Below, piece after piece: positions 1 to 32,500 of a stretch of 49,573 nt of DNA (its first letter is position 1; each line of letters begins with the position of its first letter). The position numbers and the translations under genes are program-made. The notes under the pieces are model-generated. The model was not told the origin of the DNA. It saw only the letters and a list, made by a program, of their open reading frames with translations, and did not search any database. This DNA is from Nitrospirota bacterium (GTDB taxonomy: Bacteria > Nitrospirota > Nitrospiria > Nitrospirales > UBA8639): NCBI GenBank assembly GCA_027623995.1, contig JAQBUF010000023.1, positions 1-49,573 on the forward strand, given 5' to 3'.

Positions 1-495
1 GGAAAGCCCACGACTGACAAACAATAACAGTACCGCGACCGCGACCACACCAAAAATAATGCCGACCTTGCGCCAAGTCGTTTGGAGCATGGCATCTTTC
101 AACTTCCGTTGCCCATCGATAAACGTTTGAGAGCGAAAACCGAGGACCATCATATAGATCGCCATCACCAGGCCAATCACGACTAAAATAATATGAATGG
201 TCAACACCGGAATGAAGACATTGTCATACAAGGCCTGAGATCCACCAAACCCTTCTTTCCCTTCAAACGCCAACACACCCAATTGCCGAAATAAATAGTA
301 GCTCGTAAAGAACGCCAACATGGCAATCATGCCACCCAGCATCAACCAATGGTGAGCGGATCCTTTTCCAGTTTTGGCCTGAATCCAACCAAGGATAAAC
401 AACGCCGTAAAGAACGTCGCCATGAGCTGACTCACATCCGCCCCCATGGTCGCATGCGTCCCAGCAAAACCTGGCTCTCGTAACCATTCAGCCAT
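1..495 (-). CDS. DUF420 family membrane protein (partial, runs off the left edge)
   Basis: I translated this frame by hand: 165 codons are open from an ATG at 495 to the window edge, so the C-terminus is missing. The start is supported by an AAGGAAAG ribosome site 8 bases upstream. At least four hydrophobic segments are visible, with an HHWLM motif at the start of the second, a TIH histidine in the third (VLTIHIILVV) and a DGQRKLKDA stretch before the last. These conserved histidines and the spacing fit DUF420 (YozB/CtaM-like), a family linked to haem-copper oxidase assembly. The preceding methyltransferase ends 12 bases upstream, so the two are probably co-transcribed. The family call rests on pattern, not on a search. 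Confidence 0.7.
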   Translation of the reverse strand, partial: MAEWLREPGFAGTHATMGADVSQLMATFFTALFILGWIQAKTGKGSAHHWLMLGGMIAMLAFFTSYYLFRQLGVLAFEGKEGFGGSQALYDNVFIPVLTIHIILVVIGLVMAIYMMVLGFRSQTFIDGQRKLKDAMLQTTWRKVGIIFGVVAVAVLLLFVSRGLS

Positions 496-507
496 GAAGT
501 CTTTCCT

Positions 508-1494
508 TTATGATGCTGCCTTTGTTCCTTGAACAATGGCTCGTGGTTCTAATTCGGTCACTGATTGAAACCCTGCATTCGTCATCCAGTCCATGGCTTC
601 TTGAGTCGTGAAACAATCCCCATGTTCCGTGTTGACCATAATATGAACCGCAAAGGCCGTAGTCCAGGCCGGACTGGTCCGATCTGGATCTAAGAACCGA
701 TCTTTTATTACCAAGCGGCCCTTGGGTGTTAAATGCGCATAAACCTTTTCCACCAAAGCGCCATTGATGTGGTGATCTTGGTAATGAAGAATGTCAGACA
801 TCAACGCCACATCATAGGGGCCACCCAATAAATCCGTGTTGAAATTTCCAGGCTTCAGAACAATTCTATCTTCCAGACCAGCTTCCTTAACATAGCGTTC
901 CGTGACAACCAAGGTTTGAGGAAGGTCAAACACTGTGGCCTTCAAATTGGGATATTCCTGACAAAAAGCAATCGCATTCGTCCCTGCCCCGCCGCCGATA
1001 TCAACCAGGTGTTCAACACCATCAAGTTGCAAATATTTCGCGAGGTTGATTCCGCCCCCTCGACCGATTCGATCCAACACGGCTAACACATTGGCGCCCA
1101 TTTCTGGATTGGTTTCAAACACGTGTTGTCGAACCGGCGATACCCCCGTTCGAATGGTCTCTTCCAATTTCCCCCAATTGTCCCATTCAGAATCATGAAG
1201 AATTAGCAGATGCCCAACATATTCCTCCTGAGTTTTCACCAAATATTTTTGGGCCACGGTGGTATTGCCAAAGCGGCCATCCAGTTTGGTCAACACTCTC
1301 ATAGCTACCAAGGCATTCAGGAGAAGACTCAAGGACCGTTCGTTAAAAGCGAACTGACCGGCAATTTCAGAAGGAGCGGCAGAACGGTTGTCCAGGGTTG
1401 AAAACAGATCCAGCTTAATGGCCGTGAGGAGAATTTTGGTCTCCCAGTAATACCCTAGCTGAAATATTTCTGCGAGAGATAACTCCCGTGGCAC
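508..1494 (-). CDS. SAM-dependent O-methyltransferase (dimerisation plus catalytic domain)
   Basis: 328 residues, the usual length for class I small-molecule O-methyltransferases (acetylserotonin/hydroxyneurosporene type). Residues about 1-90 form the winged-helix dimerisation domain (YYWETKILLTAIKLDLFSTL). The SAM-binding glycine motif DIGGGAGT lies at about residue 165, an acidic FDLP motif follows, and the DILHYQD segment sits where the catalytic-base histidine is found in the family. The start is a GTG at 1494 with AAGGA six bases upstream. The gene is the first of a pair with the DUF420 gene. The substrate cannot be read from sequence; a quinone, carotenoid or cofactor precursor are possibilities. 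Confidence 0.85.
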   Translation of the reverse strand: MPRELSLAEIFQLGYYWETKILLTAIKLDLFSTLDNRSAAPSEIAGQFAFNERSLSLLLNALVAMRVLTKLDGRFGNTTVAQKYLVKTQEEYVGHLLILHDSEWDNWGKLEETIRTGVSPVRQHVFETNPEMGANVLAVLDRIGRGGGINLAKYLQLDGVEHLVDIGGGAGTNAIAFCQEYPNLKATVFDLPQTLVVTERYVKEAGLEDRIVLKPGNFNTDLLGGPYDVALMSDILHYQDHHINGALVEKVYAHLTPKGRLVIKDRFLDPDRTSPAWTTAFAVHIMVNTEHGDCFTTQEAMDWMTNAGFQSVTELEPRAIVQGTKAAS

Positions 1495-1665: not shown

Positions 1666-2460
1666 TTAACCTTTAAAACTATTCACTTTTTTGATGTCAA
1701 AATTGGCTTCAACAGTCGCACCATCTTTGACTTCAACTTCAATTTCCACATTCCCAGCGATTGGATGCCAGGCCAACACTTTGTGTTTACCAGCAGGCAC
1801 ATCTTTAATTTCAAACGTACCATCGGCACCGGTTGTCCCAACATGGCCATTGGTCACAGGCAAATACCAGGCTTGCATGAATTCATGTTGGTCACATTGC
1901 AAGCGAAGCACGGAACCTTTTTTGGCCATCTTCATTTTAATGGTTTTATCCAAGGAATCACCCTTTTTGGCTAACCCAATATTAAACAGGGTTTGGGATT
2001 TGGCACCGAGCACATCAAAGCTATGCGGGTTATGCAACACGCCTTCTTTGGACTTGGGATCGCTAGCATCGGCATCTTCATTAGTCACCATAAAATTTTG
2101 CATGTTGGCCATGACGCCGGTAAAGGGCAGAAACTCACACAACTGGGCCTTCACATCAGCTTTAAATTTAAAGCCTTTATCCTCAATGCCACGAACAGAC
2201 ACGACGGCATTTTTCAGCCCTTTGCTTCCATCCACTTCAACTTCTTTCAGTAAACGAGTATCATCGCCTTTTTTGCTGGGATTTTTTTTGCAAAATTCGA
2301 TATTAGGAAACTTGGAAAAGGCAAATTCTTTGGCAGGGATAGCCTTGCCAGAATAGGTAACTTTGCCTTTGATTGTTCCACCTGCTTGGGCTACCAATGG
2401 AATGGCAATCAGCATTCCACCTAGTAACAGGGACACAGTTAGGGATTGACGATTTCTCAT
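1666..2460 (-). CDS. Secreted cupredoxin-like protein with carboxypeptidase-regulatory-like domain (paralogue 1)
   Basis: 264 residues from the ATG at 2460. An open frame extends upstream to 2550, but GAGGAGG lies just before 2460 and a signal peptide begins there (MRNRQSLTVSLLLGG, cleavage near AQAGG). After a GTIKGKVTYSG strand come two conserved cysteines (FCKK and LCEFLPF), a histidine motif HNPHSFDV, and LQCDQHEFM, which gives a Cys-x2-His-x2-Met pattern typical of blue-copper ligands. The C-terminus (GTFEIKDVPAGKHKVLAWH) is a carboxypeptidase-regulatory-like beta sandwich. It shares this layout with the two proteins at 6707-8548. Periplasmic copper binding or electron transfer is inferred. 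It is transcribed alone, ending at its own terminator. Confidence 0.75.
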   Translation of the reverse strand: MRNRQSLTVSLLLGGMLIAIPLVAQAGGTIKGKVTYSGKAIPAKEFAFSKFPNIEFCKKNPSKKGDDTRLLKEVEVDGSKGLKNAVVSVRGIEDKGFKFKADVKAQLCEFLPFTGVMANMQNFMVTNEDADASDPKSKEGVLHNPHSFDVLGAKSQTLFNIGLAKKGDSLDKTIKMKMAKKGSVLRLQCDQHEFMQAWYLPVTNGHVGTTGADGTFEIKDVPAGKHKVLAWHPIAGNVEIEVEVKDGATVEANFDIKKVNSFKG

Positions 2461-2692
2461 GATCTTTCCTCCTCGTTGAAAATAAAAGTTGTCTTTTTGG
2501 GGGGGTATTAAACCTAACGGCTGTTGACTCCCTCGCCGTCTCACATCCATCTCACTGACACGGGCTGGAATGTAATCAAATATTCCTCAAACTACCTACT
2601 TTTTTTATAACAAGATGTAATTTTAGTGTCAAGTCAACATTCTCTAAGTGACTTATTTGGTTGACCTTTTTTTGATTTTGAGCATTTTTCGA

Positions 2693-4660
2693 TTACGACG
2701 ATGGCCTACCCAATTTTCCAGGAAATGGCTTGGCCGATTCCAATATCCCCACCATCACCTCATCGAGATGATCACTTAAGGCCTCCGCGTTTGATATTGG
2801 GCTGGAACAAAGCGTGTCGGTGCACACATAAGCCTGAGAAACCTTGGTGCGCGGGAAAGTCACTTCACCGATAGACAGTTGATCAACCTCTGGATCTAAA
2901 AACCTGACCACCTTTCCAGGCACATAAAGCTGGAGAGCTCGATGAAAAAGTTTCAGTGCTGTCTGTTCACCTTTTTCTCCGACCACCACAATATGCACCG
3001 GATATTGGAGGTGCCGATTGATTGCCAAGCCGACAATCCCCACAGGTAATGAACCCAAGCGTCCCATCACATATTGCAAAACCTGCTTTGCCAAATTCCG
3101 GTACGTCTCATTCTGAGTGACATAAAATAAATCAGATAATACCAGAGCTAGCGACGCATTGGCTTTCACATCCTTGTAAGGAAATTTTAATAGCCCACGC
3201 GATGCAGCATTTTCGGGTCGATCAAAAAATCCCCCACCTTGCTGATCTTCAAGCTGGCCAATCACATCAAGGATAATCCGCTCAGCTCTGTCTCGGTACA
3301 CCGACAAACCTGTGGTCACATATGCCTCAATCATCGCATCCGCAAACCAGACCTGATCTTCGAGGAGCAGAAATTCTTGTGGGCTTCCATCCTGCCTCGT
3401 GTGAGCCAGGCCTCTCCCTGGTCGATACCGCTCATCAAACAACCGAATGAGCGTTTTAAGTGCAAATTCTCGAAGCTGAGGAGTTCCAAACACTTGGGAC
3501 GCTTTCAAGAAACTTTTAACCATCAATCCATTCCATCCGGTGTATATAGAACGATCGAGATAGGGAAGACCAATCGCTAGACGTTGTGCTTCATTCAATT
3601 TGAAATACGTTTCTCCAGAAACAAAGCCATGCGAACCTTCTCCTCTGACATCGGCATCTTGACTGGCAAAAAATCCTCCTCGTTCTCGGTCAGCTAAAAA
3701 ACGAGTCACATACTGAATGGTCTGATGAGCCGCCTCCCGATACCGTGGGGCCTTCGTTAATTGGTAGGCCTCAAGGTAGTTCAACAAATTCTGAGCTTGT
3801 ACGGGCAGCATCTTCTCATAATGAGGAGAGGTCCAATCGGCAGCTTCCGCATACCGATAGAATCCTCCCCAGACGGGATCCATTAATTGTAGCTGTTGAT
3901 CCAACGTCAACAAGGCCATGTGCTTGGCCTCAGAATCTTGCCGCCAAAAGTTCATCTCCAAAGCAAAGCTGATGGCTCCCGGTTCAAAGAATTTCGGGGC
4001 GTTGTGAAACCCGCCATATACTTGATCAAAACTTTGTTTCATCACCAACAGCATCTGATCCGCCTGTTCCTGATGAATCAAGCCTTCACCACGAACTTGA
4101 GATTGTTTCGCGGCATTCACCTTTTCCCAGACAGCTGCCGCCCTCTCAAGAAAATCATCTTTGTTTTCTCGATACAGGACTTCAGTTTCCTGCAAGGCAA
4201 CGAGCAGCTCTTCGGGGGATAGGGAATTGGCTTGAAACAATATTTCCCCGGATGGCAACAAGATACTGGTCGTTGGCCACCCCCCCTGTTTATATCGAGC
4301 CTCGATATCCGGACGTTGATCGGTTTCCACACGTACTGGAATAAACGCCGAATTCAATAACTCCACCACTTGAGGATTCACATAGGTCGTCTCATCCATC
4401 ACATGGCACGCATGGCACCAGATCGCCGTCAAATCCAACAAAATCAGTTTATCTTCGTCCTTCGCACGATCAAACGCGGAAGCCTCCCAGTCCACCCACC
4501 GAATGGTGGAGTCCGTAGCAGGCACATCAGAAATTACCTGTTTATCGAGAGCCAATAGAGAGTGTGGGGAAAGCTGAAGAGCGAGGGAGAAGACACAGAG
4601 GGCGAAATAGATCGCTTTCCTACGATCTAAAAATGACAAGGTTGCTAGAGGCGTGGCCAC
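2693..4660 (-). CDS. YyaL/SSP411-type protein: thioredoxin-like domain plus (alpha/alpha)6 barrel
   Basis: 655 residues, close to the family's usual 650-700. An N-terminal hydrophobic stretch (residues about 15-37) suggests export, unlike many cytoplasmic family members. The thioredoxin-like domain carries WCHACHVMDETTY near residue 82, with the CxxC pair in the WC-x-x-C position, and GGWPTTSILLPSG near residue 126. The remaining 450 residues are the six-hairpin glycosidase-like barrel (GGFHNAPKFFEP, GGFFASQDADVRGEG, GWNGLMVKSFLKA). The function of this family is not established; a thiol role is plausible. The GTG start at 4660 has no clear ribosome site and follows the HEAT-repeat gene by 17 bases, so it is the last gene of the operon. 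Confidence 0.85.
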   Translation of the reverse strand: MATPLATLSFLDRRKAIYFALCVFSLALQLSPHSLLALDKQVISDVPATDSTIRWVDWEASAFDRAKDEDKLILLDLTAIWCHACHVMDETTYVNPQVVELLNSAFIPVRVETDQRPDIEARYKQGGWPTTSILLPSGEILFQANSLSPEELLVALQETEVLYRENKDDFLERAAAVWEKVNAAKQSQVRGEGLIHQEQADQMLLVMKQSFDQVYGGFHNAPKFFEPGAISFALEMNFWRQDSEAKHMALLTLDQQLQLMDPVWGGFYRYAEAADWTSPHYEKMLPVQAQNLLNYLEAYQLTKAPRYREAAHQTIQYVTRFLADRERGGFFASQDADVRGEGSHGFVSGETYFKLNEAQRLAIGLPYLDRSIYTGWNGLMVKSFLKASQVFGTPQLREFALKTLIRLFDERYRPGRGLAHTRQDGSPQEFLLLEDQVWFADAMIEAYVTTGLSVYRDRAERIILDVIGQLEDQQGGGFFDRPENAASRGLLKFPYKDVKANASLALVLSDLFYVTQNETYRNLAKQVLQYVMGRLGSLPVGIVGLAINRHLQYPVHIVVVGEKGEQTALKLFHRALQLYVPGKVVRFLDPEVDQLSIGEVTFPRTKVSQAYVCTDTLCSSPISNAEALSDHLDEVMVGILESAKPFPGKLGRPSS

Positions 4661-4677
4661 AGGATTCTCACAGAGGG

Positions 4678-6027
4678 TTACGTTTGAGGTGGCGTTGAAA
4701 GGATCCTCGCTATAGCTCCGGCAGCGGTAGCACGGAGAGATTCGTTTGGATCTTTCAAAAGATTTTTCAGGTGAGGAATGGCTTCTCGTCCCGCCACACG
4801 ACCGAGAGATCTCGCGGCAGAGATTCGAGGTTTGGGCACGGGGTCATTCAGCAACAATTGTAGGGTGCCGCCCACATCTTGAACACGCCCATGGGCCAGA
4901 GCCTTGGCCGCCGAAGAACGTATTCCAGGATTTTGCTCCCCAATTAATTCCCGAACCGTATTCCGCACAATGCCAAATGGGCTGTTGAGCTGGAGAAGAC
5001 CCGCAATGGCCGCAGCTTTGACCCCCATGTTCTTATCGCGCAAGGCTGCTGTCAACGCAGGAATTGCATCCTCGGCCTTCAATGTTCCCAGCGTCACCGC
5101 AGCCACACTCCGCACCGCAGGCACGGGGTCAGACAACGCCCCAATCACCAATGGCACCCCTTCCGGCAATCCGAGTTTTCCCAGTGAGGCGACAGCCGCA
5201 GCGCGAATCGATGGCTGTTTATCTCGTAGCCCCAACTCCAGGAGAGGCAACCCTCGGGAATCTCCGATTTCCCCAACCATACGTAAGGCCGAGCCACGCT
5301 CATATCCTTCTTTGACATTCGTGGCCTGGACCACTCGTTCCCATTGCTCCTTTTGGCCCAGACGATACAGCGCGGCCGCTGCAGCAACCTGCACCGCTTC
5401 TTGCTTATCGGTCAGAAAGGGCATGATGAGCGGAATCGTGGACGTATCGCCCGAACGCCCGAAGGCATTTAATACCGTCACCTGCACTAACCCTGCTTGA
5501 TCATTCAAGGCTCCTCGGAAGGCTTCCATCTTCCGTCCCGCAGGAAATATTCCCATGCCTTCGGCCACGAGGACTCGGATCATGCCAGATCCATCACTCA
5601 AGCCATCCTGATAATAGGGAAGGGCTTCTGGGGATTGAATCTCTTTCAAAGCAGAATACGCCGAACCTCTGACTTGTTCCCGCATATCTGATCGAAAGAG
5701 CAAGATGCTCTGAATCGCCAACTCGCGAAGTAACGGCTCATCATTGCGACTAGCTGCTTTGACGAACTGATCAAAGGCCTCAACCCCATCTTTGGTCTTC
5801 CCCATACGAACCAAGCTCAACATTTTGAGTCGGGAGCTGTCGCGCGCGCCAGGAGACTCTTTCACTAGGGGCTCAACCAACGCTAAGGCTTTAGGAAAAT
5901 CGCCTTGCGTAAAGGCTTCGGTCGCCTGACTCAGGGAGGATTCAGCCTTCGCATGAGCCCCCCCCGCAAGAGGAAACGTGCAGAGGCTGAAAACCATCAC
6001 TATTCCGATTAACCTCGCTGACTTCAT
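4678..6027 (-). CDS. Exported HEAT/PBS-lyase repeat protein
   Basis: 449 residues from the ATG at 6027; the frame is open further upstream but a signal peptide begins here (MKSARLIGIVMVFSLC, cleavage near AHA). After a TPR-like helix pair (FTQGDFPKALALVEPLV) there are about ten HEAT-type repeats of 30-33 residues, with recurring patterns such as EALPYYQDGLSDGSGMIRV and GLPLLELGLRDKQPSIRAAA. HEAT solenoids are protein-protein scaffolds. An AAAGGG ribosome site overlaps the stop of the upstream gene, and the genes are 7 bases apart, so translation is probably coupled. A periplasmic scaffold role for the neighbouring copper proteins is only inferred from context. Confidence 0.85.
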   Translation of the reverse strand: MKSARLIGIVMVFSLCTFPLAGGAHAKAESSLSQATEAFTQGDFPKALALVEPLVKESPGARDSSRLKMLSLVRMGKTKDGVEAFDQFVKAASRNDEPLLRELAIQSILLFRSDMREQVRGSAYSALKEIQSPEALPYYQDGLSDGSGMIRVLVAEGMGIFPAGRKMEAFRGALNDQAGLVQVTVLNAFGRSGDTSTIPLIMPFLTDKQEAVQVAAAAALYRLGQKEQWERVVQATNVKEGYERGSALRMVGEIGDSRGLPLLELGLRDKQPSIRAAAVASLGKLGLPEGVPLVIGALSDPVPAVRSVAAVTLGTLKAEDAIPALTAALRDKNMGVKAAAIAGLLQLNSPFGIVRNTVRELIGEQNPGIRSSAAKALAHGRVQDVGGTLQLLLNDPVPKPRISAARSLGRVAGREAIPHLKNLLKDPNESLRATAAGAIARILSTPPQT

Positions 6028-6034
6028 TATGTCA

Positions 6035-6703
6035 TTACCCTTTCTCCGCTTGTATCTCGGAGGCTTCGATAGTTCTATACCCCAACGGGGGTTCGAAAAA
6101 ATATTCGGGTTGTGGTGATTGAACCACCCGCTCATATTCCACTGACCAATTTCTGTCCTGACTGACTAACTTTAACAACAATTGCCGGGGTTCATCGACC
6201 CATTCATAATACCGTTCCTGATGCCCATTGCGATTGACCTCCACATCATACAATGTCGCCTCATTCTCTCCTACCATGGCATCGCCAATCAAAGATCGAG
6301 ACACCTCACCCTCAAGGCGAACAGTCAAAGGCAACACATCATCTGTTGTCAGCGGGACGGCGACCACTAACCGTTGTTGAGAGAGCACGTACCATACCTG
6401 GCCTTGGTCAAGCCGAACAATGGTAATGGTGGCATAGCCCAGGTCAGTTTTTATGCCGCCCAGGTGTTCAATGCGATAGCGATCACCCTTCACAAACAAT
6501 TGAGCTTTCGAGGAATGTTTCCCAGTCCGCCAGGTCAGTCGAGCAGAAAACTCTAGCGATGAGGGAGAGTCAGGGATAAAAGACGCGGCAGCCCAAGCTG
6601 AATTGAATCCCACATCCACAGCAAGAAACGATGCCACTAAACACAGCCAGGAGAGGATAGATGCGCACCCCGGAATTTTTCTACGGGGCCGAAGAAAACA
6701 CAT
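6035..6703 (-). CDS. Exported LolA-like/DUF4412-like protein of unknown role
   Basis: About 222 residues. The ORF can start at GTG 6706, directly abutting the upstream stop, or at ATG 6703. An arginine-rich start and a hydrophobic segment ending in SAWAAA form a signal peptide. The mature part is beta-rich: LEFSARLTWRTGKHSSKAQLF, GDRYRIEHLG, VWYVLSQQRLVVAVPL. Its strand-rich pattern, with a GDRYRIE-type turn, resembles LolA/DUF4412 folds that bind lipid or sit in the periplasm. I do not recognise a catalytic motif. It lies third in a tight operon of cupredoxin proteins, the HEAT protein and the YyaL-type protein. Confidence 0.65.
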   Translation of the reverse strand: MCFLRPRRKIPGCASILSWLCLVASFLAVDVGFNSAWAAASFIPDSPSSLEFSARLTWRTGKHSSKAQLFVKGDRYRIEHLGGIKTDLGYATITIVRLDQGQVWYVLSQQRLVVAVPLTTDDVLPLTVRLEGEVSRSLIGDAMVGENEATLYDVEVNRNGHQERYYEWVDEPRQLLLKLVSQDRNWSVEYERVVQSPQPEYFFEPPLGYRTIEASEIQAEKG

Positions 6704-6706
6704 CAC

Positions 6707-7618
6707 TTATTGTTGCTCAAGAATTGGTTCAATAGTAAATTCACGCCCCAATGCGGCAGGGGTAAATCGAGGAGGCGTCCGAACCGTGAGTGCTGTTTTT
6801 TTACGCCCCGGTGACGGCAACGTAAAATTCACCACCAATTCCTGGTTGGGTTTAATCGTGACCTGTTGCTTGATCTCGGGCTTAATGCCTGGATGCCAAG
6901 CGCGAAGGGCATAGGTTCCAGGGGGAATATTATCAATGGAAAAGTGTCCTTGTTCATCAGTCATCACATAATAAGGATTATCCACCGCAATGGCCCAACT
7001 TTCCATGAACGCATGGAAACCGCATTGCATCACAAACGTATGACGTTTCTTACTCAGTTGAAATTGACGAACCAAGGAGACACCAGGATTATGATCATGC
7101 ATGGCATGAAGATTGCCTCGATGATGTCGTTGATTAAATGGCAAGGGCGAATTAAAGAGGACTCTCGTTCCAGTGACCACGGATGTTTCATAGGCTTGAA
7201 TATCATGCATCACGGGATCCATATTGACGACTTCAACACCATGCCCACTGCGAACCACTGTAGTAAAGGGTAAAAACTTACAATCCTTCGCTTCGATTCT
7301 TGGCACTGAAAGGGAGAATACCTTTCCCGCTTTCACCCCCTCTAACACCACGACGACATCTTTCACTTGGTTCTTTTCATTCACAAAAAAATCGTGGAGC
7401 AGCCGCCACCCAGTGCCATTTGAAATCCGCCCACAATATTCTGGATCCGGGAAGGTCACCAAATTATAGGCCTTGGGATCGGGCACTTCACCGGAAAGGG
7501 TCACGGTTCCTTGGATCGCCCCACCCTGTTCGACCTCCGTCACTTCATATGCCCACGCCGATACCGGCAACAGATACATGGCTCCTATGAACAAGAAACA
7601 AAGGAAGCGAATTATCAA
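6707..7618 (-). CDS. Secreted cupredoxin-like protein with carboxypeptidase-regulatory-like domain (paralogue 2)
   Basis: 303 residues. The start is a TTG at 7618 with GGGGAG six bases upstream. It has a signal peptide (cleavage near AWAYE), then GGAIQGTVTLSG, conserved cysteines in YCGRISNGTGW and DCKFLPF, the histidine motif NMDPVMHDIQAYE near residue 135, and VMQCGFHAFMESW near residue 205, a Cys-x2-His-x2-Met blue-copper pattern. The C-terminal HFSIDNIPPGTYALRAWHPG is the carboxypeptidase-regulatory-like module. It is closely related to the next gene upstream, with 12 bases between them, so the two are probably a tandem duplication. Copper binding is inferred from the motif, not shown. 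Confidence 0.8.
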   Translation of the reverse strand: MIIRFLCFLFIGAMYLLPVSAWAYEVTEVEQGGAIQGTVTLSGEVPDPKAYNLVTFPDPEYCGRISNGTGWRLLHDFFVNEKNQVKDVVVVLEGVKAGKVFSLSVPRIEAKDCKFLPFTTVVRSGHGVEVVNMDPVMHDIQAYETSVVTGTRVLFNSPLPFNQRHHRGNLHAMHDHNPGVSLVRQFQLSKKRHTFVMQCGFHAFMESWAIAVDNPYYVMTDEQGHFSIDNIPPGTYALRAWHPGIKPEIKQQVTIKPNQELVVNFTLPSPGRKKTALTVRTPPRFTPAALGREFTIEPILEQQ

Positions 7619-7630
7619 AAGATACTCCCC

Positions 7631-8548
7631 TTAGAATTTTTGCAAACGAAGCGAAGGAATAACTTCCACACCTTCACCAAGCAATTCCAATCCAAACCGC
7701 GGATTTTCACTAATTTCATGGACGCTTCGACGACCAGGGTTAGCAACGTATTCAAAATTCTCGGTAAGGGTGCGATTGGAAGTCACGGTCACCTGTCGTT
7801 CAAGATATTGTTTCGTACCCGCATGCCAAACCTTTAACGTATATTGTCCTGGAGGAATATCGGATATTTCAAACTGGCCATCTTCTTTGGTAATGGCATA
7901 GTAAGGGTTTTTCACGACAACTCCCCATGAAAACATATAGGGATGAAATCCACATTGCATCACAAAGATATTTCGGCCTTTCCGAAGATGAATTTTTTCG
8001 ATCATGGGCGTTCCGGCCATATGCTTGTGGCTATTCAACATGCCCAATACTCTATGAAATGGGTTCATTGGTAGGGGCCGATTAAACAATATTCTCGCTC
8101 CCCGCTCTCTGGCAGTTTCGTATCCTTGAATATCATGTTCAATGGGATCCATATTGATGACAGTAATTTCCTCTTTGTCTTTGAGTACATTAACGAAAGG
8201 AAGAAAGTCGCAATCAATGGCATCAACTCTAACTTTTGGTAAATCAAACGACTTCCCTTTTTTAATGTCGTCCAACATCACGACAACATCCTTTAGACTG
8301 CCACCCTCCCCAATAATAAAATCTTCCACAATTCGCCAACCTGTGCCAGTTGAGATTCTTCCGCAATAGACAGCATCAGGAATTGTCACCAGATTGAAAG
8401 CCATCGGTCTTGGCGTGTTTCCGGTAATCGTCACTTTCCCTTGAATGGTTCCTCCATTCGTGACAGCTATTTCCTCATAGGAAAAACTTGGCAAGGCCAA
8501 TGCCATCACCCACATGCCAACCACCAACGCCAATGTCCAACGCTTCAT
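7631..8548 (-). CDS. Secreted cupredoxin-like protein with carboxypeptidase-regulatory-like domain (paralogue 3)
   Basis: 305 residues from the ATG at 8548. The ORF can be extended 4 codons to 8560, but the upstream ATG overlaps a perfect GGAGG that serves the inner start 5 bases away. Signal peptide MKRWTLALVVGMWV ends near SFSYEE. Motifs are GGTIQGKVTITG, YCGRISTGTGW, DCDFLPF, NMDPIEHDIQGYE and VMQCGFHPYMFSW, giving the same His plus Cys-x2-His-x2-Met ligand set as the paralogues, then a C-terminal QFEISDIPPGQYTLKVWHAG module. It is the first gene of the five-gene operon that runs down to 2693. The upstream neighbour is the giant multicopper oxidase, cut off by the terminator at 8652-8680. 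Confidence 0.8.
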   Translation of the reverse strand: MKRWTLALVVGMWVMALALPSFSYEEIAVTNGGTIQGKVTITGNTPRPMAFNLVTIPDAVYCGRISTGTGWRIVEDFIIGEGGSLKDVVVMLDDIKKGKSFDLPKVRVDAIDCDFLPFVNVLKDKEEITVINMDPIEHDIQGYETARERGARILFNRPLPMNPFHRVLGMLNSHKHMAGTPMIEKIHLRKGRNIFVMQCGFHPYMFSWGVVVKNPYYAITKEDGQFEISDIPPGQYTLKVWHAGTKQYLERQVTVTSNRTLTENFEYVANPGRRSVHEISENPRFGLELLGEGVEVIPSLRLQKF

Positions 8549-8651
8549 GAATTCCTCCATCTCAAGGTTCTTCCCTTGTTGCTTACTTCTCTCTATCCGC
8601 TCCTTTTTACTATACGAGGAACGAATGCCGAATGATACTCTTCAAAAAAAA

Positions 8652-8680
8652 ACGGGGAAGCCGAAGCTCGGCTTCCCCGT
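8652..8680 (-). terminator. Strong intrinsic terminator of the multicopper oxidase gene
   Basis: A perfect 12-base-pair stem (ACGGGGAAGCCG / CGGCTTCCCCGT) with a 5-base loop, followed on the minus strand by a run of nine T. It lies 30 bases after the oxidase stop and ends that transcript before the cupredoxin operon. Confidence 0.92.
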
Positions 8681-8710
8681 CATTCTCATTCGATAACGTA
8701 CCGATAATCG

Positions 8711-11700
8711 CTACTTGAACGAAATTGGTCGAACGCTACCTTCTGAAGACTGAGGCACCTGTGCTTCTTTGGCTCCAGGAGCCGCCCCACCAAGCGGAAG
8801 AATTCTCTGGTCGTTCTTTGGCAGAACGCGGAAGTAGCCCCATTGACCAGATTGAGAATATGGTAAGCGGGCATTGCTATACACATAATCCCCCTTCATG
8901 GCATATGGACCACCCGCTGAAGAGACAAACACATCAATCCCCTCAGACCCAGCAAACTCGACAACGCTGATTTGGTCAGCCCCACGCATAAATGGTTCAA
9001 TCGGCCACTCATGCTTTTCGAGGGTAAACATTCCATTTTGTTCATTGCTGGCACCAAACACATGGATCCGAACTGGATCGCCGGCATGCGCCTCAATGAG
9101 TGGCGTCGCGGGATCAGCGGGGTCATCCACGTTACATGGTTGGAACATCTTACCCAATGAACACCCTTGTTCTTCACGGTACAGGTAGGGTTCATTCCGA
9201 TAATTAATCCCAATGAGACCTGCCACGTTCTGCACATAGGGCATAAAGCTGGTTCCAATAATATTATCTTCCTCTTGGAAGAATAGGGCCACGTCACGAT
9301 AATTCGCGCGATGTGCGTTACCCGGCACCGTCCGATCAACGATGACATCAGCTGTCCAGCTATTCTTTAACGAAATATCCGCACCGGTTTTTGGATCACG
9401 GTATTGTGAACCCTTTGGACCGATGACAATACCACCAAACAAACCATTACGAGGATTCATGGCGACATTACCCCAATCCCACACGAGAGATTGCGTTTCA
9501 CCAAAAAATGGATCCGCATAATAGGTATAGGTTTTACTCTCGCCTGGAGCAATGGTCTGATCTCCAGGATTATTTCCAAGGTTGACACCTTGGGAATCCT
9601 TTGGATCAAACGCCAAGCTAAAGGCTGAGAATGATGCACGGCTTTCTTTCATTTTGTTGGTGAGATTCACCTTAATACAATCGCCAACATTAGCCCGTAA
9701 GGTCAGAGGCATGGGTTGGAATTCCCCAGAGACTTTCGCCACCTCCTCTTCCAGAACATAAATTTTGGCATCTGGATTTCGGACTTCAATCTTTCGTTCA
9801 AAATCGACTTCAATGGCTTCTTCCACATTTGGATTAAACGCCATTTCTGGGAAGTCCATCGACACCACATTGAAATTCTTCACTGGAGCATCTGCTGGGC
9901 AAATGGGCAAAGGCTTCTTTAACCCCTGGGCTCCATATGCGGCATTAGGTAAAGGTTTAAGATCAGGGACTATTTTGTCCAACACCCGAATCACACCCCA
10001 TGACCCTTCAGATAACTTTGAACTTCGGCCATTGAAGTACATGTAGTCACCAGGTTGCAGTCTCGGGCCACCGGCCTGAGCCACCGCCAAGTCATAGCGT
10101 TCGGCAATACCAATGTGAATAGAATTCTTTCGATTCGCATCACCAGCATACCGCTCAGTCAGGAAGTTATGACCAGAAATGGTAAAGACGTTACTTTCAT
10201 TCATGGTCACGTCAACCAACCTAAAGACAATCGCATCGCCCAAATACGCACGTATCATTGCCGTACTTGGATCACCATGAGTGATGCTACTAAAAATCTG
10301 CGAGGTTTCTGGGTTATTCGCTAACCGTTGCGCGAAGGGTTCTGCCCGGAAATTAATGGCACCACCCGTGGTATGCGTTCCTCCATTAAGAAACGGCATT
10401 GGCGTCATTTTAATGAGTTCGTTTGGCGGCATTTGGAAGGACACGGTACGGCCCGCTTCCAACGCCACTTCAATTGGCTGACCAGGAGGATTTCCGGCCG
10501 TGACCACGTTGACCGTATGAGGAACGGTATCCATGATTTGCACCATCAACTCACGGAAACTTCCGCTTATTCCATAGCCAACAGGTTCGATGGTATGAAT
10601 ATCCATCACAGGACCGGTTCGCTTGGCTTCACCGGTAATCGGGTCATGCCACGTCGATCCAAATGGTTCGATGATAAAGGTACACACGGCACCATGTGGC
10701 CATGTGGTTCCACCAAACGCATGGTCATGACAAAATACTGACCCCACGTCCGCATCCACCCAAAAACGTTGACGAACAAATTCCACCGTTACGATATCGC
10801 CAATAGGATGGTCATGTTTTAATGGCTTTTTAAAGGTAATAGTACCAGGCCCTCCAACGGCTGGCATGGGTTCGCCATGGCCACTACCACCGGAACCTGG
10901 GATTTGTAACTTCTGCCCAACATGAATGAGATTAACATTTGAGAGACCATTGACCGATTGCAAGGCTTCTACGGTCGTTCCATGAGAACCGGCGATCTCT
11001 CCCAGTGTGTCTCCAGGTCGGACCACATAGTCTCCACCGGCGCTGCTAGGAGCAGTGGCTGATCCACCAGCATTTCCTGCACCATCAATGGACACAATTC
11101 GCATCACTTCGTTGCCTTTGACGTTATCCGCACCAACCAAGAGCACGGTTCCGACATGGTATTGGCCGGAATTCGTCACATGAATGGTTCGGTCACCCTT
11201 GCGGGAAGGTTTCGTCAATTTGGCATTCATTGGAACTGGCAACCCTTTATCAGACGACTTGTCAAATTGCGTAAAAGGCCGCATCGATTGGTCATATGAA
11301 AAACCTGAAATCACGCCATCAGAGGCTTGATTGTCAAATTGCACAAAATGGAAGTGCGTATTGATTTTTGAAGACTGGAAATTCGTAAAATCATCATCCA
11401 GCCATTCGCTGGTGAGAATCCAATCCATGCAATCATAAATATTAGAACGGAACACCAACGGCACCTTCAAATCATTATTGTTCCGAATGGCTTCTTCTTC
11501 ATCATGAGACACATACAACAACCCATTGGGGTCAACCACAGCTGGTTGATCACCTTGGGCTGCGGACAATTCAATCGGAAGTTTAATAAAGTGGACATTA
11601 TATTTCTGAGAGCCTGCGCGATCTGGGCAAAGGCTCCAACGGCCATTTTCCCCTGGCTTGGCTGGCTCCACGGAAGGTTGACCATCGTCATCCAAGTGAA

Positions 11701-13867
11701 TCATTTCCAACCATGGAGCTGGGTTTCTATCAGGAGAGAATGGATTTCTCTTTCCAAAATGTGGGGTCAGCCAAGGCCAAGCCACTTTCCCAGATGCTGG
11801 CTCAAACCAAATAGACCGACGCTTTCCGGCTTCATACCCTTGCCATTCAGGATGGTATTTTGGATTTACCGTGGTGCCTTCTTTTTCGCTCATCGCACGA
11901 TTGCCGGCCCAAGTCCAATCCAACACAGTGGCATCATAGGATTTTAACTGACCAATCTCGTCTTCCGTATGACCAGGGAGACCACGAGTAGGCAATTGCA
12001 TTTCTACCCAGTCATAAATATTGATCGTGGCTGGATTAGTATCCCAAACCGACTTGATACCTTTCTCAACAATATTGAACTTTTTGCCAAACCAATCGAC
12101 GGTCGTCCCGACTAACTGATCTGAGGTGACGGGTTTTGGAATACGTCCCACACGATCTGGCAACTCACGAAGAGGTGCCATCACATCATTTTTCACACCG
12201 GGAACTTGAATCGTGTTGTACACACGCCAGTACCCCCACATTCCTGCCACATAATGGTGCGCAACATGGCAATGAAAGAGAAAGTCTCCAGCAAGATGTT
12301 GACACAGACCAGAACCGCATTCCGTTTCAAGGTCTAAAGCTTCTGACGGCCCAATCACCTCCACATCAACGCGGTCAGTTTTGGCCCGAATCAATGGGTA
12401 TTTCAAAGGACCATTTTGACCTTTATGCCACATTGGCATTTCGTCAATCGCACGAGGGCTCCGAGCCCAACGAATGGCTCCACCATGCGGATGATGAGAA
12501 TGGAACACTTCGGACCCGCCATGCACCAACCGAAACTTCGCTGGATCCCCTAAATAACTTCGGGGGATCGTTGGGCCTGCATCTCCGAAGGTGTACGAAC
12601 TATAGGCCATCGATTCATCTTCGAATCCAAAGTATTCATGCTGAACATGCATGTTGTTGATGCCAAAGGGTTCGCTTCGATAGTTCAGCGCTCTGGCACC
12701 TGGTCGATACGCATCCGTTAAGGGATCACGTTGCGGAAGGAAGTCACCGTGTTTGTTCACCGGACGGAAGGCTTCATCACCAACCTCGTGATAAATCAAC
12801 ACGAATTCACGAAAATCTGGGCCCATACCATTTTGAATCATGGCTTGCCATCCACTTGGAAAATCTGTGGCTGCCCCTGTTCCAAGAGGATCGAGGTATT
12901 TTGAACCTGCGGGTTCGACCACAAACACCCCAAACAATCCCATCACCGTGAGTTCACGATCATTACTATAGCTATGGAATTGGCGACCACCCTCTTGGGT
13001 GTCTGGGTGAATATACCATTCCAATTCTACAGGTTTTGGATCACAATCTTTTTCGCAATCTTCTTGAGCGCCAGAGGCCACGGAATCAGGATTGGTCGTG
13101 GTGGCTGGTTGACCAGTTTTGCTCACGACCATGCTAGAACCATTAATGTGAAGGCTCACATCTTCGCCGAATTCTAATGCATTGCGAAGAGTGACTTTGA
13201 GGCAATCCCCTTGGTTGCCACGAATCACCAATGGTTGAATGTATTGACCTTGAATTCCATTCTTCACCCCACCAGGATTATGGTGACCTTCTTCTTCGCG
13301 GGCTTCAGCATTCTTCGCTTCTTCCTCACGAACATTGTCAATATTGTCCGTCAGCACATACATGTACCCTGGATAGTAATCCAGCCATTGATTCAAAGTA
13401 ATTTCCACATTGATGGCGGACACGTCATAGTGTTTCACTGAAGCCGTCGATGGACATTTTCCACCGCCGCCCATGGAAACCGGTTCAATGTCACCATCAG
13501 ACTGAAGCAGGTAATTTCCTTTGCCAGCCCCATACTGATGCATCATAGACATGCCATTGAACCCACCGTCATCTGACCCGGAAGATTCTTTTTTCATTTG
13601 CTTCATCAAACGTTCATGCTGTTTTTCAACAAGCGCAGAGCGCTCAGCACGGCCTTCTTTGGCATTTTCAATAATAGTCTGCCCTTTGAGGCGCTCGGCC
13701 CATTCCGGAGTTTGATGATTCATCCACGTTTTGTGAACCATGCCCTCAGATTCTTGAGTTTCTGCAAAAACTCCAGTGAAGGGAAGGAAGAGGAACGACA
13801 GGGCAAGCATGCTTCCCAAAGTAAGGGACACACGTTGCTTCATAGAATGACGTTTGAATTGAAACAT
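8711..13867 (-). CDS. Giant multicopper oxidase with embedded LysM domain
   Basis: 1718 residues with an N-terminal signal peptide (cleavage near VFAETQ) and AAGGAGG 7 bases before the ATG. At least six cupredoxin-type segments are visible. Copper motifs, by approximate residue: HSHHPHG (454), HCHVAHHYVAGM (531, the HCHx3Hx4M type 1/3 motif with axial Met), HFH (838) and HDH (1043). A glycine/serine-flanked LysM domain lies at about 945-990 (YVVRPGDTLGEIAGSHGTTV), between HFH and HDH. Length and layout recall MofA/OmpB-type metal oxidases and MnxG/McoA-like proteins, which oxidise Mn(II) or Fe(II); the substrate here is unknown. LysM suggests binding to peptidoglycan or another glycan. The long C-terminal part (1150-1718) keeps cupredoxin strands but seems to lack the His clusters. 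Transcribed alone. Confidence 0.88.
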   Translation of the reverse strand: MFQFKRHSMKQRVSLTLGSMLALSFLFLPFTGVFAETQESEGMVHKTWMNHQTPEWAERLKGQTIIENAKEGRAERSALVEKQHERLMKQMKKESSGSDDGGFNGMSMMHQYGAGKGNYLLQSDGDIEPVSMGGGGKCPSTASVKHYDVSAINVEITLNQWLDYYPGYMYVLTDNIDNVREEEAKNAEAREEEGHHNPGGVKNGIQGQYIQPLVIRGNQGDCLKVTLRNALEFGEDVSLHINGSSMVVSKTGQPATTTNPDSVASGAQEDCEKDCDPKPVELEWYIHPDTQEGGRQFHSYSNDRELTVMGLFGVFVVEPAGSKYLDPLGTGAATDFPSGWQAMIQNGMGPDFREFVLIYHEVGDEAFRPVNKHGDFLPQRDPLTDAYRPGARALNYRSEPFGINNMHVQHEYFGFEDESMAYSSYTFGDAGPTIPRSYLGDPAKFRLVHGGSEVFHSHHPHGGAIRWARSPRAIDEMPMWHKGQNGPLKYPLIRAKTDRVDVEVIGPSEALDLETECGSGLCQHLAGDFLFHCHVAHHYVAGMWGYWRVYNTIQVPGVKNDVMAPLRELPDRVGRIPKPVTSDQLVGTTVDWFGKKFNIVEKGIKSVWDTNPATINIYDWVEMQLPTRGLPGHTEDEIGQLKSYDATVLDWTWAGNRAMSEKEGTTVNPKYHPEWQGYEAGKRRSIWFEPASGKVAWPWLTPHFGKRNPFSPDRNPAPWLEMIHLDDDGQPSVEPAKPGENGRWSLCPDRAGSQKYNVHFIKLPIELSAAQGDQPAVVDPNGLLYVSHDEEEAIRNNNDLKVPLVFRSNIYDCMDWILTSEWLDDDFTNFQSSKINTHFHFVQFDNQASDGVISGFSYDQSMRPFTQFDKSSDKGLPVPMNAKLTKPSRKGDRTIHVTNSGQYHVGTVLLVGADNVKGNEVMRIVSIDGAGNAGGSATAPSSAGGDYVVRPGDTLGEIAGSHGTTVEALQSVNGLSNVNLIHVGQKLQIPGSGGSGHGEPMPAVGGPGTITFKKPLKHDHPIGDIVTVEFVRQRFWVDADVGSVFCHDHAFGGTTWPHGAVCTFIIEPFGSTWHDPITGEAKRTGPVMDIHTIEPVGYGISGSFRELMVQIMDTVPHTVNVVTAGNPPGQPIEVALEAGRTVSFQMPPNELIKMTPMPFLNGGTHTTGGAINFRAEPFAQRLANNPETSQIFSSITHGDPSTAMIRAYLGDAIVFRLVDVTMNESNVFTISGHNFLTERYAGDANRKNSIHIGIAERYDLAVAQAGGPRLQPGDYMYFNGRSSKLSEGSWGVIRVLDKIVPDLKPLPNAAYGAQGLKKPLPICPADAPVKNFNVVSMDFPEMAFNPNVEEAIEVDFERKIEVRNPDAKIYVLEEEVAKVSGEFQPMPLTLRANVGDCIKVNLTNKMKESRASFSAFSLAFDPKDSQGVNLGNNPGDQTIAPGESKTYTYYADPFFGETQSLVWDWGNVAMNPRNGLFGGIVIGPKGSQYRDPKTGADISLKNSWTADVIVDRTVPGNAHRANYRDVALFFQEEDNIIGTSFMPYVQNVAGLIGINYRNEPYLYREEQGCSLGKMFQPCNVDDPADPATPLIEAHAGDPVRIHVFGASNEQNGMFTLEKHEWPIEPFMRGADQISVVEFAGSEGIDVFVSSAGGPYAMKGDYVYSNARLPYSQSGQWGYFRVLPKNDQRILPLGGAAPGAKEAQVPQSSEGSVRPISFK

Positions 13868-27952: not shown

Positions 27953-29515
27953 ATGAAACACATACCCGTAATAAAAATTTTCCATCAAATAAGACTAGGA
28001 ATCCTCCTGTCGACCCTCCTTGGCGGTTGCGCCGCAGAACTCCCGCCCCCCAGCACCCAGGCTTCAGAAATTTTGAACTCTCCACCAACCGCACAATCTC
28101 ATAATCAAAACCCCACACAAATAGAAAAGGCCTCGAGTGAACAGTCCAAACCCAAGCCTGGCTCACTCGCCTATACGCAAGAACAGGCCAACCAAGGCGA
28201 TCCACAAGCTCAAACCCACCTCGCATGGATGTATCACGATGGTCGTGGAGTGCCAAAAGATTTCGGCAAAGCAGTACAATGGCTACAATTAGCCGCGAAG
28301 CAAGGGTATGCAATCGCCCTCAATGATTTAGGGTGGATGTATGAACAAGGCCACGGAGTGCTCAATAATAGTAATACGGCCTTTCAGTGGTATCGACGCG
28401 CAGCGGACCTTGGGCATGCCCCAGCCCAACAGAATGTCGGCATCGCCTTATTCGAAGGTCGAGGGGTTCAACAGAATCAAGAAGAGGCGGTGAAGTGGTT
28501 CCAATTAGCCGCCGAGCAGGGCGAAGCCAAGGCCCAATATATGCTAGGAAGCGTCTACCAAGATGAACACCATGTTCCTCACGACATAGCCATCGCCATA
28601 CAATGGTATCAACGAGCAGCTGAGCAAGGTGAGATTCATGCACAACACCAATTAGGGTTTTTCTCTCAGATAGGATTAGGTGGCCCCCAAGATGATAAAC
28701 ACGCTGCCGAGTGGTACCGCAAAGCAGCAAGCCAGGGACTCCCAGAAGCCCAACTCAACTTAGGGGCCTTATATGCAGATGGCAAAGGTGTTCCCCAGGA
28801 CTGGACCGAGGCCCGAAGGTGGTACAAGCTCTCAGCCGACCAAGGAAATGCCACCGCTCAATTCACCCTCGGCAACCTATACGGGTCAGGGACTGGGGTC
28901 AAAAAAAATATTGCAAAAGCAACGTTGTGGATTCGGAAAGCAGCAGAACAAGGGCACGCGGAAGCCCAAGATCATTTAGGACTCATGTATCAAGAAGGCA
29001 TCGGTGTGCCCCAGGACCACACAGAAGCTGTAAAATGGTATCGAAAAGCCGCAGAGCAGGGAAATGCCGATGGGCAATTCGACCTTGGCTGGATGTACCA
29101 AGAAGGCCTCGGAGTCCCAAGAGATGAAAACAAGGCTGTCACCTGGATCCAGAAGGCAGCACGACAAGGGCATGCCTTAGCCCAATATAATATGGGCGTG
29201 ATGTACGCATTTGGACTCGGGATACTTCAAAATAATTCAAAAGCCCTGGAATGGTATCGCAAGGCGGTGGCTCAGAACCAACCCGATGCGCAAAACAATC
29301 TTGGCATGATGTACAGAGAAGGCCGAGGAGTTTCCCAAGATTATGCCGAAGCCGTGAAGTGGTTTCAGAAAGCTGCCGATCAGGGATTTTCTCGAGCCCT
29401 CGTGAATTTAGGGCAAATGTATAAAGAAGGCTTAGGGGTGCCAAAGGATAACGCGCAAGCTAAGAAATGGTTCCGATTGGCAAGAAAAGCTCTAGTTCAA
29501 GAAAGACAAAACTAA
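27953..29515 (+). CDS. Sel1-repeat lipoprotein
   Basis: 520 residues, with GAGGGAAG just before the ATG. Lipobox LGGC at about residue 25. About 12 Sel1-like repeats of 36 residues follow, each with the consensus AQYxLGxMYxxGxGVPQDxxEAVKWYRKAAEQG (for example AQDHLGLMYQEGIGV). Sel1 solenoids are protein-interaction scaffolds in signalling and envelope assembly. The gene faces the much larger Sel1 gene at 29551-33891, with 35 bases between the stops. Confidence 0.92.
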   Translation: MKHIPVIKIFHQIRLGILLSTLLGGCAAELPPPSTQASEILNSPPTAQSHNQNPTQIEKASSEQSKPKPGSLAYTQEQANQGDPQAQTHLAWMYHDGRGVPKDFGKAVQWLQLAAKQGYAIALNDLGWMYEQGHGVLNNSNTAFQWYRRAADLGHAPAQQNVGIALFEGRGVQQNQEEAVKWFQLAAEQGEAKAQYMLGSVYQDEHHVPHDIAIAIQWYQRAAEQGEIHAQHQLGFFSQIGLGGPQDDKHAAEWYRKAASQGLPEAQLNLGALYADGKGVPQDWTEARRWYKLSADQGNATAQFTLGNLYGSGTGVKKNIAKATLWIRKAAEQGHAEAQDHLGLMYQEGIGVPQDHTEAVKWYRKAAEQGNADGQFDLGWMYQEGLGVPRDENKAVTWIQKAARQGHALAQYNMGVMYAFGLGILQNNSKALEWYRKAVAQNQPDAQNNLGMMYREGRGVSQDYAEAVKWFQKAADQGFSRALVNLGQMYKEGLGVPKDNAQAKKWFRLARKALVQERQN

Positions 29516-29550: not shown

Positions 29551-32500
29551 CTATAACTCCTGAGGGAGAGGTAAGCTCGCCCCCGTCTCCAACCAAGTTT
29601 TCAATTTCATAAATACGGCGTCAGCCCGCAGTTTCACCTCCTCTGAAAGCATGGCAGACCAATCCTCCTTCACCTGTATGGCCTGATCACGACTAGGCCC
29701 TGGAGAAAATTTTTCTATAGCTAGAGTCTGCCAAGCCAAAGCGATAGCCAAATCTAGGGGGACGCCTTTTCCATCCCAGTAGAGTTGAGACACATTGGTC
29801 ATCGCATTTGGATTGTGATCAAGGTGTATGGCTTGCAGAAACATATCTCTGGCTTTTTCCATGTTTTGCGCCACGCCTTGACCATGAAAATAGAATACTC
29901 CAAGGTCCCCACACGCATCCGAGCGCTCAAGTTCGCAGGCCTGAGCTAACCATTCTATCGCTACGGAATAATCTTGAATGGCTTCATCACCCTGACTAAA
30001 CATATTGGCCAAATTCACCATGGCCTGTGGATCATTTAATTCTGCAGCCTTAATCCACCAATCATAGGCCTTAAGTAAATCCCGAGACACGCCTTCTCCG
30101 AGAGAATACCGTATTCCTAAACTCACCATTGCGCTGGTGGATCCTAACTCGGCCGCTTTTCGATACCAATCAATCGCTTTCGGATAATCCTGAGACACCC
30201 CTTTTCCGGTCGCATACAACACACCCAAATTATTCATCGCATCAGGTTCATCCAACGCAGCGGCTCGACGGTACAAGGTCAAGGCCATCGGAATATTTTC
30301 AGACACGCCATACCCGTTTTCATACATGATTCCTAAATTCGTAAAGGCGGCGGGAAGCTTATCTCCCACAGCTTGTTGAAATAAAATGAGTGCCCAGTCT
30401 TCATCTTTTTGAACGCCAACACCATCAAGATATAATTGTCCCAACTTAATTCGTCCCCACGAGCTTTTTTGATCCACGGCCTTCTCGTACCATTTTGCCG
30501 CCAGGCTCGGATCTTTATTCGTTCCTCGCCCCATGAGATGCAAATCTCCGACCCATACTTGGGCACCGACATCGCCCATTTCGGCAGCCTTAACAAAAAG
30601 TTCTAAGGCTTTAGTATCATCCTGAGAAAAGCCCTCGCCATTAAAATACATCTGACCCAAATTCAAAAACGCGCCAGGGTGATTGTGTTGGGAGCCTTTC
30701 GCATACCACTCCTTTGCCCGGTCAAAATTTTGAGTTACGCCCTTTCCTCGATGATAAAACGATCCAAGATTGACCATGGCACTCGGAACACCTTTTTGAG
30801 CAGCTTTCTCATACATGGAAAAGGCTAAAAGGATTTCGACAGGGCCTCCGTATCCATGTTCATACATGAGACCAAGATTATTCATCGCCTTAGGGTCGTG
30901 AAGCGAAACCGCGGTTTCATAATACATCTTGGCTTTTTGGTAGTTTTGGGGAACCCCCAGTGCATGATAGAAGGTATTCCCTAACTCTGAATACGCCACT
31001 GGAAGTTCCTGTTGAGCAGCCTCCTCCAATAACCGCAGCCCCATATTCACATCCTTCTTCACTCCAATCCCATCACGATATAAAAGCCCAAGGGCACATT
31101 GGGCTCTAGGATTATTCTCATCGACAGCTTTCTGATACCAGGCGATACCCATTTCAATGTCTTGAGACGTGCCTCGCCCCTCCCGATATAATGCCCCTAG
31201 TAATATTTGAGATTCAGAATCCCCAGCCTCTGCCGCTTGCAAGACCCAGGATAGGGCTTTCGTATCATTCTTAAACTCACCCTCACCCTCAAGATACATG
31301 CCACCTAGGTTTTTGAAAGCAATCAAAATGCCATGTTGAGCGCTTTTTTCAAACCAGACCCTGGCCTGTTCAAGATCTTGCTCCACACCAATCCCTCGAA
31401 AATAGGCCCAACCAAGATTATTCATGGCATAAGGCTCTTCCATCTCCGCAGCCTTTTCATACAAAGAAAGGGCCGTATCTAAATTCACTGCAACCCCTTG
31501 ACCATGTTGGTACATAATCCCAAGTCTATTGATAGCTTCAGGCTCATCAAGAGAAGCAGCCTTTTCATAGTAGTGCTTGGCTTTTTCAAAACTTTGATCG
31601 ACACCCAACCCGTGAAAATATGTATGTCCTAAGGCGACCAACGCATCAGGGTAGTGCTGTGCAGCAGCGGCCTCTAACAATTGCAACGCCTCCTGAGTAT
31701 CTTGCTCAACCCCCAAGCCATCCCGATATAAGAGCCCAAGGGCATATTGAGCCCCTGGAAATTTTGCACTTACAGCTTTCCGATACCAAGACAATCCTTT
31801 TTCTAAATCCTGCGTGATACCTTGTCCTTCGAGATAGAACGCACCGACCAATATTTGAGAGGATGGATCACCGGCTTCAGCAGCTTTCAGAAACCACCTG
31901 AATGCCTCTTGGTCATTTTGGGACACACCTTGCCCATTCAAATGCAAGAATCCTAGATTTCGATATCCACCCAAATCGCCAGCATCCCCAGCTTGGAGAA
32001 ACCAGTGCTGGGCAAGATTCACATCTTGAGAAACTCCTATACCCTCCATATACAATTCTCCAAGACGGACCATTGCAGTAGGCTCCCCCACCTCAGCCGC
32101 CTTGAGGGACCATGAGGCCGCTTCCTCCAAATTGAGTTCAACGCCCTGTCCAAATTCCGACATATTCCCCATCATCATCATGGCCCCGGCATGGCCTTGA
32201 TCCGCAGCCTTTCGATACCAGACTGCAGCCTGTTCATCACTCTGAGCTGTCCCCTCACCATTGAAGTATCGATCACCTAACATGGCCTGTCCATCAGCAT
32301 AACCAGCTTCGGCAGATTTCGTGAACCATCTAAAAGCTTCCTCCAGATCTTGAGGCTCACTCACTCCTTCAAGAGCCCAAGCGCCTAATTCCCTGTAGGC
32401 CCTAGGATGTCCGAAACCAGCAGCTTTTTCGAACCAATATTTGGATTGACGATAATCCCGTGTCACGCCTTCCCCCAAATAATATCGATACGCTAGATTA

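Follow-up and report, generated by a model that had tools for sequence, protein, structure and literature searches.

The window analysed here is contig JAQBUF010000023.1, a stretch of 49,573 nucleotides (C31 among the contigs of its 3.13-Mb Nitrospirales genome, assembly GCA_027623995.1). Its minus strand encodes, in order, a giant multicopper oxidase (MCO), a tandem pair of cupredoxin-like proteins (CUP-A and CUP-B), a LolA-like protein, a HEAT-repeat protein, a YyaL-like protein, a third cupredoxin-like paralogue (CUP-C), a methyltransferase and a DUF420 protein. The subject of this report is the pairing of the oxidase with the three paralogues (collectively, the CUPs), which recurs across the order and beyond it.

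8711..13867, minus strand: MCO, 1718 aa, MnxG-like, with a leader-like N-terminus and a LysM insert at residues ~947-990 (open reading frame (ORF), NF041487, 9bxa)
8651..8681, minus strand: intrinsic terminator between MCO and CUP-A, a 14-pair stem with a T-run (hairpin, intergenic comparison)
7631..8560, minus strand: CUP-A, exported cupredoxin and carboxypeptidase-regulatory protein, 309 aa (ORF, Pfam, alignment, tree)
6707..7618, minus strand: CUP-B, second of the tandem pair, 303 aa (ORF, Pfam, alignment, AlphaFold2 model)
6035..6706, minus strand: exported protein of LolA/RseB fold (fold matches of the model)
4678..6135, minus strand: exported HEAT-repeat protein, its real start probably an internal Met at about 6027 (PF13646, E=2.2e-45)
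2693..4660, minus strand: exported YyaL/DsbH-type thioredoxin-fold protein with CxxC (CHAC) (PF03190, E=9.9e-27)
1666..2550, minus strand: CUP-C, third paralogue, loop CDQHEFM, its real start probably an internal Met at about 2460 (ORF, Pfam, alignment, tree)
508..1494, minus strand: O-methyltransferase-family protein, a conserved cluster member (PF00891, E=1.2e-22; same position in relatives)
1..495, minus strand: DUF420 membrane protein, truncated by the contig end (neighbourhood cluster; relatives match PF04238)

An earlier note on this DNA had placed three related reading frames beside the oxidase, and they are indeed homologous: CUP-A and CUP-B share 43% identity, CUP-C and CUP-B 27%, and a search of the window's own genome returned these three together with one further copy on contig C17. 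The motifs ascribed to all three hold for the most part. The xCxFLPF signature is present throughout (DCDFLPF, DCKFLPF and LCEFLPF in CUP-A, CUP-B and CUP-C, respectively), as are the Cys-x2-His-x2-Met copper loop (CGFHPYM, CGFHAFM, CDQHEFM) and an upstream His (EHD, MHD, LHN). GTIxGxVT is exact in CUP-A and CUP-C and reads GAIQGTVT in CUP-B, while the YCGR of CUP-A and CUP-B becomes FCKK, with the Cys kept, in CUP-C. Two extra Cys, the His, the C-x2-H-x2-M loop and a late His are invariant in 75/75 aligned CUP family members from the order; judged by this conservation, the motif set is not a product of chance. The same 75/75 sequences satisfy the type 1 cupredoxin ligand order (His, Cys, His, Met), and the loop is found in 32/32 CUPs from members of the class outside the order. 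Its spacing is that of amicyanin.

Searching PDB sequences with the CUPs matched the carboxypeptidase-regulatory part, which Pfam places at the C-terminus, and gave no match for the cupredoxin part; the cupredoxin fold was therefore tested by structure prediction. The AlphaFold2 model of CUP-B, the one CUP modelled (pLDDT 86), has purple cupredoxin, NirK, amicyanin and plastocyanin as its top fold matches at a probability of 1.00, with TMt values of 0.54-0.68 against small cupredoxins. A cupredoxin plus carboxypeptidase-regulatory architecture thus draws support from the conserved ligands, from Pfam and from the fold match, and the CUPs are predicted to bind copper. With the type 1 cupredoxins (amicyanin, plastocyanin and the Nitrosopumilus purple cupredoxin, 5fc9) they have in common the predicted fold and the His and C-x2-H-x2-M ligands, but they carry an additional invariant Cys pair and the additional C-terminal domain. 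No paper pairing cupredoxin with the carboxypeptidase domain by its full name came up in a literature search. In a tree of the family the copies cluster by position: the CUP-C clade has a support of 1.0, and the split between CUP-A and CUP-B, which has a few exceptions, is only moderately supported (0.69 each). The proteins of the CUP operon have hydrophobic, leader-like N-termini, as read from their sequences.

The best solved match of the MCO is the MnxG chain 9bxa of the Mnx complex (E=1.2e-73), another multi-domain giant MCO to which several stretches align. The two proteins differ in length (1718 versus 1227 aa), in the LysM domain inserted at residues 947-990 of the window's copy and in their neighbours, here the CUPs; furthermore, the score against the MnxG model NF041487 (E=4.9e-34, 116.6 bits) falls far below the equivalog cut-off of 3100. 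The His and Cys residues of the copper motifs HxH and HCHxxxHxxxxM are conserved in at least 99% of 80 MCOs. Residues at the LysM position occur in 26/80 aligned MCOs, chiefly in longer proteins (about 1700-1740 aa), and the insert may tie the window's copy to peptidoglycan. Between the MCO and the CUP operon lies a strong terminator (8681-8651), and a strong hairpin with a T-run follows the MCO stop codon in 22 of 28 MCO-CUP intergenic regions, that of the window included. The oxidase and its putative carriers are therefore neighbours, though their transcripts would be separate or attenuated.

Both genes are nearly universal among the relatives searched, the window's own genome included (MCO in 58/60, CUP in 58/60). 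Neighbourhoods were compared at the best 80 of 471 relatives, whose titles are nearly all Nitrospira, Nitrospirales or Nitrospirota; gene calls in these relatives are mechanical ORFs, and antisense ORFs hide some genes in the neighbourhood tables. The earlier note had named the lack of a conserved neighbourhood elsewhere as an outcome that would speak against its proposal, and the comparison did not go against it. An MCO lies at most 3.5 kb upstream of the CUP in 55/58 named Nitrospirales loci with room for it, these 58 being drawn from the 80. Within the 80 named loci a second CUP stands directly upstream in 54/65 and a HEAT gene downstream in 64/64, whereas the LolA-like gene was detected in 45/73, CUP-C in 32/49, YyaL in 26/55 and a bd-like gene in 27/48. 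At four loci (L098, L099, L100 and L101), in some members of family f2, an FGE-sulfatase-like gene replaces CUP-B beside CUP-A.

In the relatives, the cluster continues with PCP_red, a membrane protein and then two bd-like proteins with FGE-like proteins between them; a diheme cytochrome c, a monoheme one and an alternative NxrC with two heme motifs of its own come next. In one and the same cluster, Ca. N. defluvii and other Nitrospirales combine an MCO and cupredoxins with a bd-like oxidase, cytochromes c and an alternative NxrC. The rest of this cluster in the window's genome (bd-like, cytochromes c, alternative NxrC) lies on contig C59, the end of which (L124, 14910-15915) overlaps positions 1-982 of the window at 89% nucleotide identity, not 100%; the assembly may possibly contain two strains or haplotypes. 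We considered and rejected a simple adjoining of C59 and C31, the overlap being just 89% identical. A molybdoenzyme pair of the nitrite oxidoreductase (NXR) type is encoded on contig C75, where the alpha subunit has 73-98% identity to its matches in ten other members of the order; its size, family and relatives, Ca. N. defluvii among them, indicate that the pair is NXR. Three genomes (G001, G010 and G017) have two nxrA copies with paralogous MCO-CUP units between them. One member of the order, G043 (90% complete), has three NXR matches and no MCO or CUP match, for which assembly loss is a possible cause.

At the level of the phylum, CUP relatives were found in 144/296 genomes. Members of the class outside the order possess both MCO and CUP in all 15 sampled genomes, and the two genes adjoin in 15/15 class loci examined (10 genomes). 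An NXR alpha subunit was found in 0/15 of these genomes at E <= 1e-30, while 10/12 order members searched alongside were positive. A single draft genome may miss NXR, MCO or CUP through assembly loss, which is implausible as a cause for 15/15. Since class members without NXR carry both genes, the MCO-CUP unit is not NXR-specific, a possibility that we considered and rejected, nor is the module tied to nitrite oxidation. We considered whether family f7 could be Ca. Manganitrophaceae; MCO counts per genome are uneven in f7, against two per genome in PMC9040806. Within this survey, no class other than the window's showed the MCO as a partner of CUPs.

CUP homologues also occur on plasmids of Phyllobacterium, Sinorhizobium and a Rhodobacteraceae, with the copper ligands kept. 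Those of Phyllobacterium and Sinorhizobium lie near SCO and cbb3 oxidase genes, and that of the Rhodobacteraceae lies between c-type cytochromes. Proteobacterial entries titled 'methylamine utilization protein' or 'carboxypeptidase regulatory-like domain-containing protein' are CUP homologues at 23-33% identity; the three examined share both Cys and the copper ligands with the CUPs, and no mau genes were present in the neighbourhoods examined.

Part of this system has been described before. Lücker et al. 2013 (PMC3578206) placed an MnxG-like MCO together with two cupredoxin-like proteins in an NXR-linked cluster, in both Nitrospina and Ca. Nitrospira defluvii, and proposed a role in Mn/reactive oxygen species (ROS) defence for the MCO and one as electron carriers for the cupredoxins. 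The earlier note's view that such a system had not been described under one name is thus only partly right. Between that cluster (Nitrospina gracilis, Ca. Nitrospira defluvii and Kuenenia) and the one compared here, the shared genes are those for cupredoxin-like proteins, a zinc-finger-type protein, the bd-like oxidase, mono- and diheme cytochromes c, the alternative NxrC and, in Nitrospina and Nitrospira, the MnxG-like MCO. For the Nitrospina and anammox copies we rely on that paper, these copies lying outside the loci compared; the Ca. N. defluvii copy was examined here (L196, L078 and L113) and compared at the level of gene content. The paper has two cupredoxin-like proteins in a cluster tied to NXR, whereas we distinguish three positional groups and find the MCO-CUP core in class members without NXR as well. 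In Nitrospira moscoviensis, the bd-like_3 and alt_NxrC_2 cluster is among the 40 most transcribed genes (PMC6606698); it has in common with the present cluster a bd-like protein, a pair of cytochromes c and an alternative NxrC accompanied by a diheme cytochrome c, and the main text of that paper mentions neither 'multicopper' nor 'cupredoxin'. New here is the adjacency of MCO and CUP in class genomes outside the order without NXR.

The homology of the three proteins, their predicted fold, their intact copper ligands and their adjacency to an MCO that keeps its motifs lead us to favour, at a probability of roughly 0.5, the interpretation that the CUPs serve the MCO and the respiratory complexes nearby as one-electron carriers. 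The continuation of the cluster into bd-like, cytochrome c and alternative NxrC genes speaks for it too, as do the distant homologues with kept ligands near cbb3 oxidase or c-type cytochrome genes. CUP-A, CUP-B and CUP-C would constitute one family of periplasmic type 1 copper electron carriers dedicated to the MnxG-type MCO and, in the Nitrospirales, would also serve the respiratory complexes of the cluster (bd-like proteins, cytochromes c and alternative NxrC). They would exchange single electrons with the type 1 copper of the MCO or with cytochromes, and the MCO would then reduce O2. The periplasmic copper-dependent redox system of the earlier note has accordingly gained a conserved neighbourhood, with its copper binding and function still predictions.

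Several observations weigh against an electron-carrier role, which we infer from sequence, a model and linkage. The direction of electron flow between CUP and MCO cannot be told from sequence, and FGE-like genes take the place of CUP-B in some f2 members. Thirty genomes outside the class encode CUPs and lack an MCO, and CUPs can therefore have other partners. Finally, SCO among the rhizobial neighbours fits equally well with copper loading, whereby the CUPs would deliver copper within the periplasm to the MCO and to the neighbouring oxidase with the aid of the thioredoxin-fold and DUF420 proteins. The rhizobial homologues beside SCO, hemA and cbb3 oxidase genes accord with such a role, as do the presence in the operon of a CxxC thioredoxin-fold protein and DUF420 and the several coppers that the MCO, by its motifs, requires. 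However, every copy has the full type 1 ligand set with an axial Met, typical of electron carriers, most loci beyond the window's family lack YyaL, and Pfam and NCBIfam profile searches matched no known copper-chaperone family; we regard copper loading as less likely, but as a live alternative and the strongest one.

Somewhat less probable again, though also a live alternative, is that the MCO oxidizes periplasmic Mn(II) to Mn(III/IV) in Mn(II)/ROS defence, with the CUPs as accessory copper subunits like MnxE/MnxF in role, relatedness not being implied. The MnxG match (E=1.2e-73) agrees with this role, which Lücker et al. 2013 (PMC3578206) proposed, and Ca. Manganitrophaceae encode two novel MCOs per genome (PMC9040806). 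Yet the MCO reaches just 116.6 of the 3100 bits of the MnxG equivalog cut-off, Cyc2/PCC is the route to Mn lithotrophy preferred in PMC9040806, and the literature consulted yielded no demonstration of Mn oxidation by a Nitrospira MCO. A CueO-like, Cu(I)-detoxifying oxidase with copper-binding partners would fit the intact MCO motifs and an operon rich in copper sites, but several paralogous units per genome, near-universality in the order and the respiratory linkage bespeak a core role and make detoxification very improbable.

Along with the electron-carrier interpretation of the CUPs, we tentatively suggest, at less than even odds, a class-wide periplasmic copper redox chain of MCO and CUPs that is older than and independent of nitrite oxidation and was later merged into the NXR/bd-like cluster of the Nitrospirales. 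If real, this chain might supply an O2-reducing or metal-oxidizing branch common to nitrite oxidizers and their NXR-lacking relatives. A conserved copper redox module of this kind, independent of NXR yet within the gene cluster of the bd-like proteins, offers named proteins open to testing and a common thread between nitrite oxidizers and relatives in the class.

The remaining operon members, given earlier as the tandem CUP pair with LolA-like, HEAT and YyaL-type proteins, were correctly described, the LolA-like protein by fold and not by Pfam. That protein matched no Pfam family up to E=1 and no NCBIfam model; its structural model (pLDDT 88) matches LolA (4mxt, 8cgm), RseB and EPDR1 (ependymin fold), and such a predicted fold, common to several families, does not make the protein a LolA. 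The YyaL/DsbH-type protein scores 94.3 bits against PF03190 (cut-off 27) and contains WCHAC in its sequence. We considered it as a core part of the module and rejected it, the gene being mostly confined to the window's family. Elsewhere in the window, two ORFs on opposite strands, 27953-29515 (520 aa) and 29551-33891 (1446 aa), look by eye like Sel1/TPR repeat proteins.

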